A stretch of DNA of 59,957 nucleotides, from contig JAKAPJ010000005.1 of the NCBI GenBank assembly GCA_021807115.1, positions 1-59,957 on the forward strand, written 5' to 3'. The notes beneath the pieces are model-generated. The model was not told where the DNA came from. It worked only from the letters and a program-made list of their open reading frames with translations, and searched no databases. Numbering within the stretch: position 1 is the stretch's first letter; every line of letters begins with the position of its first letter. This DNA is from Microcaldota archaeon (GTDB lineage: Archaea; Micrarchaeota; Micrarchaeia; Micrarchaeales; Micrarchaeaceae). This document shows, in pieces, positions 23,012 to 24,724 of the stretch. The position numbers and the translations under genes are program-made.

Positions 23012-24724
23012 TCACATGTCCGCATACGACATGTTTATGCTGTTTGACAACCGCAGCCTGCCTATAAGCCCGCTGGCCCTCTCGCGCATGCCAGGGCCGT
23101 CGCCATACTTTACCTCCACGAAGGAGCTGAGCCGCCTCTTGCCGCCGGCCTCGGTCTTTGTGACGTTCCTGTCAACGTTCACGGTTATGCCGTCCATCGT
23201 GTAGCCAGTCCTCTCCTTATCAACCCTTATTATGTTGCCCTTGGATATTGACAGCAGGAATTTCTTTATCTCGCTGTTGTCGCCCTCCAGCGGAAACTCG
23301 AGCTTTGGCCTGCGGCTGGAACCCCTCCCGGTGGATGGACCCTTGTAGCAGAATGTTGTGTGGTCCCCTTCCCTCCTTATCCTGAGCTGCTCGCCGCTCC
23401 TGCCCTTGGCCATCTGCGGCGTTATGTAGTATTCGTCTATGTGGGAGAATGTGCCGATCTTTGTGGCGCCCATGGAAAGCAGCCTGCCCTCCGGCACGTC
23501 GCCCATGAACTTCGCCTGTACTGTGTAGTTGCCTATCCTGGCCGCCTCCTTCCTTGGGTCAAAGTCGTTCTTTATTACTATGTCGGCGCACCTCTTCGTG
23601 CGTTCCACGTACCTTCTGTGGCCGTATGCAGCCACGTTTACGAAAAGCCCGAGCACGTCAGAGGATGCCGGATATATCTTGCTCCTTCCAGTGTCACGCA
23701 ACAGGCGCCTGAGCATCTGCCCCTGCAGGCTGGCGTCCACGAATATTGTAAGGTCGTAGAGGTCCACGAGGGGCTTGACAAGCGTGAACAGCCCCTCTGC
23801 TATTATCACCCTTGCTGGGCGCACCGTCTCGAACGTCGGGGACTCCACCAGCGCAAAGTCGAATACGGGTTTGGTTATCGGCTTATTGGCCCTCAGCTCG
23901 CGCAGGTGGGCGGCGAAAAGGTCGAGCTTTATGGCCCGGGGTGTATCGAAGTTCAGGTACCCATTCCTGCTCGGCAGGCGCTTTATGAAACCCTTGTTCC
24001 TGAAGTAGTCGTCCATCTGCAGTATCATTGCTGATGGACCCAAGGCGTCCTTGAGCAGCCTGCTGACCATTGACGTCTTGCCTGATGCCGACCCGCCGGC
24101 CAGCCCGACAAGTACTGGCGTGTCAGATGTCTTGAGCATGGCCCGTATCTCGGACACCGCTGCGCGCACTCCGCGCTTGAGGTCGTATGTAGCCTGCTTG
24201 CGCGAGGTCCTTGGCCTAATGGCAGTGCTCTGCGGGGCACCGCGGCGCGATAGTTCCTTGTTCTTGTACCGCTTGTCGTATGTCACCTCCCTGCCGAGCC
24301 AGGGCGGGGGCATGAATGCCCTACTCTGTGCCACTGTCGCAAATTCCACCTCAGCGACTACAAGGCCCTTCAGCCCGCCGCGATAGACGTCGAGCTCCAC
24401 GGCACGGCCTTTGTATGGCACAATGTAGCGGGTCTTGCCTATCAGCCTGCCCCGGGCATGCCTGAGTTTTGCGGCGAAATCCTCCGCGGAAATTGTCTTG
24501 GTCTCCTCGTGCCTCTTGAGCCCGGAACCACGCTTCGCGGTGAGGTAGAACTTGCCATCCGCGCTGCGCACCCTGACCTCTTCCTTATCTGTGTTCTTCA
24601 GGTACGCCTGCAGTATGTCATAGTGCCTGCGGCGGCCCAGCCTCTCCGGTAGCCACCGCACAAGGAACTTGCGCTCTATCTCTGGGCCGGAAACGGCGGT
24701 GCCGCCTTTCAGTGTGTTTGACAT
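23012..24724 (-). CDS. CYTH domain - uridine kinase-like P-loop - CYTH domain fusion
   Basis: 570 residues. Residues about 15-160 form a CYTH/triphosphate-tunnel domain: EIERKFLV carries the ExExK signature (E15, E17, K19), followed by EEVRVRSADGKFYLTAKRGS and VVAEVEFATV. Residues about 200-420 are a uridine kinase/phosphoribulokinase-like P-loop domain with GLAGGSASGKTSMVSRLL (207 onward), LQMDDYFRNKG and VIIAEGLFTLVKP. The last about 140 residues form a second CYTH/CyaB-like unit (IDEYYITPQMAKG, LRIRREGDHTTFCYKGP, RPKLEFPLEGD), without a clear ExExK. The N-terminal unit could hydrolyse tripolyphosphate or nucleoside triphosphates. The nearest known architecture is the plant TTM1/TTM2 kinase-CYTH proteins. 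The substrate is unknown. A TATA box (CTTAAATATG on the minus strand, near 24770) precedes it. Confidence 0.85.
   Translation of the reverse strand: MSNTLKGGTAVSGPEIERKFLVRWLPERLGRRRHYDILQAYLKNTDKEEVRVRSADGKFYLTAKRGSGLKRHEETKTISAEDFAAKLRHARGRLIGKTRYIVPYKGRAVELDVYRGGLKGLVVAEVEFATVAQSRAFMPPPWLGREVTYDKRYKNKELSRRGAPQSTAIRPRTSRKQATYDLKRGVRAAVSEIRAMLKTSDTPVLVGLAGGSASGKTSMVSRLLKDALGPSAMILQMDDYFRNKGFIKRLPSRNGYLNFDTPRAIKLDLFAAHLRELRANKPITKPVFDFALVESPTFETVRPARVIIAEGLFTLVKPLVDLYDLTIFVDASLQGQMLRRLLRDTGRSKIYPASSDVLGLFVNVAAYGHRRYVERTKRCADIVIKNDFDPRKEAARIGNYTVQAKFMGDVPEGRLLSMGATKIGTFSHIDEYYITPQMAKGRSGEQLRIRREGDHTTFCYKGPSTGRGSSRRPKLEFPLEGDNSEIKKFLLSISKGNIIRVDKERTGYTMDGITVNVDRNVTKTEAGGKRRLSSFVEVKYGDGPGMRERASGLIGRLRLSNSINMSYADM

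Follow-up and report, generated by a model that had tools for sequence, protein, structure and literature searches.

The window, a 59,957-nucleotide stretch of contig JAKAPJ010000005.1 from a Microcaldota archaeon, encodes a 570-residue protein in which a CYTH domain of the active tripolyphosphatase type is followed by a P-loop kinase of the uridine kinase family and a second CYTH domain. The kinase and second CYTH form a tandem resembling plant TTM1 and TTM2, and the CYTH behind the kinase has lost its metal ligands in the archaea as in plants. The individual domains are familiar, and a kinase-CYTH tandem has been described in plants and amoebae. The three-part arrangement and the archaeal family that carries it, however, appear undescribed, as no paper on them was found in the literature searched. 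This agrees with the initial annotation, which considered the architecture little described. A previous study described a kinase-CYTH cluster, lacking both ExExK and ExE, as exclusive to Viridiplantae and Amoebozoa (PMC8233210), and the layout is now seen to extend beyond those eukaryotes. Solid evidence stands behind the architecture, the loss of ligands throughout the family and the connection with TTM1/TTM2; the functional proposals made below are less firmly based.

Domain organization of the fusion protein

The gene and its component parts, in window coordinates, are as follows.

23012–24724, minus strand: CYTH-kinase-CYTH fusion gene; single open frame with an ATG start, stop codon at 23012–23014
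24245–24685, minus strand: N-terminal CYTH/TTM domain (N-CYTH) of the NeuTTM (NE1496) type, residues 14–160, from PDB 3typ/2fbl, motifs and the AF2 model
24668–24682, minus strand: ExExK motif EIERK, residues 15–19
24185–24244, minus strand: linker, partly disordered by AF2 pLDDT, residues 161–180
23555–24184, minus strand: uridine-kinase/PRK-family P-loop kinase, residues 181–390, from Pfam PRK, PDB 3asy and alignment
24074–24097, minus strand: Walker A motif GGSASGKT, residues 210–217
23015–23533, minus strand: C-terminal CYTH domain (C-CYTH), SaTTM-like, residues 398–570, from Pfam CYTH, the SaTTM 7ns8 profile and motifs
23510–23524, minus strand: degenerate ExExK, TVQAK, residues 401–405
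23108–23116, minus strand: degenerate ExE, EVK, residues 537–539

The reading frame is intact, and the plus strand of 23012–24724 contains stops. Pfam profiles identified PRK/uridine kinase at residues 206–385 (E 2.5e-18). They also matched CYTH to two segments of the protein (total E 1.5e-13), of which the best, residues 415–521, lies in the C-terminal region. The AF2 model, built with 26 relatives, displays three confident domains (mean pLDDT 91), low confidence being restricted to residues 1–6 and 163–168, with pLDDT below 50 at 163–168. Pfam, PDB profile matches and the model therefore agree on the three domains, and on their order, that had been read from the sequence initially. The kinase domain ends in an NxYNP-type linker, here KNDFDP. 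A chance or mis-assembled fusion is ruled out by the identical architecture in several independent genomes.

The N-terminal CYTH is of the NeuTTM type

Residues 15–159 match the solved inorganic triphosphatase NE1496 (NeuTTM; 2fbl/3typ) with an E of about 5e-26 and ∼40% identity over the whole length. The motifs of the domain (EIERK, RVR, TAK, KTR, LDVY, EVEF and TYDKRYKN) are all as in NE1496, providing a complete set of ExExK, RxR, TxK, KxR, D, ExE and plug helix, with the tunnel Arg/Lys residues in place. The initial description of this unit as complete and carrying ExExK is thus confirmed, and the domain is, by its motifs, most likely a working tripolyphosphatase. NE1496 consists of this domain alone, whereas its archaeal counterpart is joined to further domains at its C-terminal side. 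In the divergent triple fusion of genome G226 (L045 964–2661) the N-CYTH lacks ExExK and other catalytic residues, although a CYTH-like strand pattern is still modelled, indicating that tripolyphosphatase activity would not always be needed. The window's own genome (G000) also contains a second, standalone NeuTTM-like CYTH, split over the ends of contigs C39 and C12 (L104/L105).

The kinase resembles, but differs from, uridine kinases

The central domain matches the PF00485 profile and contains Walker A (GGSASGKT) together with the motifs MDDYF, NFD, EGLF and RRLLRD. The Walker A Lys216, Asp238, Asp260, Glu310, Arg340 and Arg343 are present in all 14 of the archaeal proteins that span these positions. 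With the uridine-cytidine kinases (Tth UK, 3asy; human UCK2, 1udw) it shares the fold, Walker A, the catalytic Asp, the EG motif and RRxxRD, and its closest uridine-kinase matches are NCBIfam PRK05480 (3.1e-33) and PDB 3asy (1e-27). These similarities, and the observation that no other PRK-family gene was found in the draft genome (86% complete, making the absence provisional), are consistent with a uridine/cytidine kinase that makes UMP/CMP in pyrimidine salvage, with the fused CYTHs removing or sensing NTP/PPi. Such a role is nevertheless unlikely. The kinase scores only 112–115 bits against udk equivalog cut-offs of 180–220 in NCBIfam (115 bits against a cut-off of 180), which excludes an ordinary udk, and true uridine kinases form a group apart from the archaeal fusion kinases in trees (support 96/88 and 93/89). 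The position aligned with His117 of human UCK2, a base-contact residue, is not conserved, being V, A, G, S or Q in the archaeal kinases, and the LID motif is RDxxR in 9 of 14 archaeal copies compared with RDxxxR in true uridine kinases. In addition, the gene is missing from most relatives in the genus. The conserved catalytic residues and the divergent base-contact and LID positions suggest that the domain is most likely a functional kinase that phosphorylates something other than uridine.

Two related arrangements were observed elsewhere. A close relative of the kinase in genome G055 (L046 958–2175) is fused to a NUDIX domain and lies beside an ITPase-like (Ham1-type) ORF; the Nudix fusion shows that this type of kinase recurs with phosphoanhydride hydrolases. 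On the Aneurinibacillus plasmid NZ_CP116888.1 (L030 5446–6465) a guanylate kinase (PF00625, E 1.9e-20) is followed by a NeuTTM-like CYTH. Taken together, these two proteins indicate that kinases and triphosphate hydrolases have been joined repeatedly.

The kinase-fused CYTH has lost its metal ligands

The profile and the fold, for which Foldseek matches include SaTTM 7nsd, both place the C-terminal domain in the CYTH family. Its nearest solved relative is the archaeal SaTTM (Saci_0718, 7ns8–7nsf; profile E 4e-18 with 7ns8), with which it also shares tunnel residues, while CyaB (3n0y) is far behind at 0.0018. The proposal of a second, CyaB-like CYTH unit therefore holds for the CYTH assignment and not for the likeness to CyaB. 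Class IV adenylyl cyclases (CyaB) are marked by an HF motif situated four residues ahead of ExExK (PMC8233210), which is absent from both CYTHs of the fusion (the N-CYTH reads TAVSGPEIERK and the C-CYTH EAARIGNYTVQAK). A cyclase identity is rejected on the basis of the missing motif and the closer similarity to SaTTM. With a cyclase role unlikely in the absence of HF, the suggestion that the protein acts in nucleotide signalling found no direct support.

SaTTM has both ExExK and ExE intact (PMC8233210). In contrast, the C-CYTH does not display the residues of a catalytic TTM, as ExExK is replaced by TVQAK and ExE by EVK. Among the 15 kinase-fused C-CYTHs, Gln replaces the second Glu of ExExK in 14 and Tyr replaces it in the remaining one. 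In place of the second Glu of ExE, all 14 that span the site have Lys, Arg, Ser or Thr; the protein in the window lacks the first Glu of ExExK as well. The kinase-linked CYTH of genome G235 (L081) is also degenerate (DIQFR and EVV). Conversely, both motifs are intact in 10/10 standalone CYTHs from other archaeal phyla. Judged from these alignments, loss of the metal ligands is a property of the kinase-fused group rather than a quirk of a single protein. The tunnel itself is preserved, with Lys405 present in 15/15 kinase-fused C-CYTHs and Lys461, Lys503, Arg505 and Asp518 in 14/14. Eleven of 14 retain the first Glu of ExE, and the domain could still be active by a different mechanism. A further copy, in genome G018 (L008 1474–3354), contains a C-CYTH with an insertion of ∼73 residues ahead of the YKGP strand.

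Relation to plant TTM1 and TTM2

The initial comparison with the kinase-CYTH proteins TTM1/TTM2 was borne out by both profile and fold, as these were the first match in each case. A profile of the archaeal kinase-CYTH tandem gave AtTTM1 (7z66) as top PDB match (E 4e-48), with both domains aligned, and the divergent G226 protein likewise matched AtTTM1 first. In Foldseek searches with the model 7z67 ranked first (E 2.5e-23 over 407 columns), at an rmsd of 14, the domains not being superposable as one body. The archaeal and Arabidopsis proteins share the order of kinase then CYTH, the NxFNP/NxYNP linker and a catalytically degenerate CYTH, the plant loss of the ExExK/ExE ligands being as described in PMC8233210. 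Alignment also revealed that FKxxxRxG, the RDxxR LID and the NxFNP linker are common to AtTTM1 and many of the archaeal proteins. That the ligands are lost in both archaea and plants suggests that the role of the fused CYTH is either altered or non-catalytic.

There are also clear differences. The archaeal protein has an additional N-terminal TTM domain that is, by its motifs, of the active type, and the kinase supplies most of the TTM1 profile score (152 of 166 bits). A C-CYTH profile on its own did not find the TTM1 CYTH, and the closeness of this domain to SaTTM leans towards its local origin. The motif of the plant cluster, W/YxRxR (PMC8233210), is not present in the archaeal C-CYTH, which reads QLRIR. 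In the kinase tree AtTTM1 lies beside true uridine kinases with weak support (86/69), and the AU test does not reject a single clade of AtTTM1 and the archaeal kinase-CYTH group (p 0.30). Neither the origin of the tandem nor the number of fusion events is settled by the kinase tree, and the N-CYTH tree likewise leaves the origin and number of fusions unsettled. It is conceivable, if doubtful, that plants, amoebae and small-genome archaea share the tandem as an ancient module whose metal-less CYTH is a phosphate or nucleotide sensor that controls the kinase. If so, the archaeal triple fusion would carry this module and its working partner, an active tripolyphosphatase, on a single polypeptide.

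Distribution and decay of the fusion gene

Of 301 genomes from the window's phylum, 17 encode the kinase-CYTH tandem or pieces of it, and all 17 belong to two families within a single order. The triple fusion is present in 10 of the 301 (G000, G001, G013, G018, G023, G027, G030, G226, G252 and G253), although the G013 copy is frameshifted and that of G252 is cut by a contig end. The double-CYTH archaeal protein, while little described as had been supposed, is consequently not a one-off, with nine further genomes of the phylum encoding the triple fusion, which is a lineage feature. In genome G168 an N-CYTH gene lies directly upstream of a kinase-CYTH gene, ∼80 bp apart and in the same direction. 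Six genomes (G014, G040, G227, G228, G025 and G235) have the tandem without a fused N-CYTH, those of G025 and G235 being interrupted by the end of a contig.

The tandem was not detected in 177 archaeal genomes outside the phylum (94 from outside the phylum and 87 of one other archaeal phylum, four being shared), where kinase and CYTH are encoded separately; the triple architecture is thus not common in archaea. Collections of plasmids, phages and viruses provided no kinase-CYTH protein; plasmids and phages gave kinases only, and the viral scan, which used one Walker A pattern only, says little. In 199 Bacillota genomes the matches to E 1e-50 were only uridine kinases, a threshold too strict to detect a fusion with the divergence of TTM1. 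A scan of genome contigs with a single fusion protein as query also found no fusion.

In three genomes of the window's genus the gene is flanked by ftsZ on one side and by the L24e-S28e-L7Ae cluster on the other; outside the genus there is no conserved functional neighbourhood and there are no conserved operon partners. At the syntenic ftsZ/L24e place in genome G008 (L102 2545–3036) only the beginning of the N-CYTH and the final part of the C-CYTH are left, the kinase having been lost. From these remnants we interpret the locus as a decayed copy of the triple fusion, and a C-CYTH fragment in G010 (L103) is similar to this relic. The fusion gene is thus old in the genus and often lost and, as it is absent or decayed in most relatives, is not essential.

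Proposed function

We favour, at about an even chance, a model in which an active NeuTTM-type tripolyphosphatase is fused to a TTM1/TTM2-like module comprising a non-uridine kinase and a metal-deficient, regulatory C-CYTH. From the motifs and the structural model we infer that the N-CYTH would hydrolyse tripolyphosphate or another triphosphate, while the kinase would use ATP to phosphorylate an acceptor, probably one other than uridine. In its still basic tunnel the C-CYTH may bind (poly)phosphate or a nucleotide and thereby regulate the kinase. Alternatively, any chemistry of the C-CYTH may be at most weak and altered, for example cleavage of pyrophosphate as has been claimed for TTM1/TTM2.

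Tripolyphosphatases of the type to which the N-CYTH belongs yield PPi and Pi, and the fusion could be a pyrophosphatase in which the C-CYTH or the kinase cleaves the PPi released by the N-CYTH. The tandem has the same layout as TTM1/TTM2, for which a pyrophosphatase activity has been reported but not assigned to a domain (PMC6973038); the compact archaeal proteins offer a means to settle which domain of this type does what. Consistent with such a role, no soluble pyrophosphatase (PF00719 or DHHA2) was found in the draft genome, an absence that is provisional at 86% completeness. The genome does, however, encode a full-length membrane H+-PPase, so removal of PPi is already covered and the fusion is unlikely to be the sole cellular pyrophosphatase; in addition, the C-CYTH sequence on its own shows no detectable resemblance to the TTM1 CYTH. 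Pyrophosphatase action is considered improbable. Finally, the sporadic distribution, the G008 relic, the G010 fragment and the frameshifted G013 copy might reflect a drifting fusion under weak selection with a C-CYTH that is merely decaying, which is very unlikely given that the kinase catalytic and C-CYTH tunnel residues are invariant in 14–15 proteins only ∼35% identical and that the lost positions are replaced uniformly (by Gln, then by Lys/Arg) rather than randomly.
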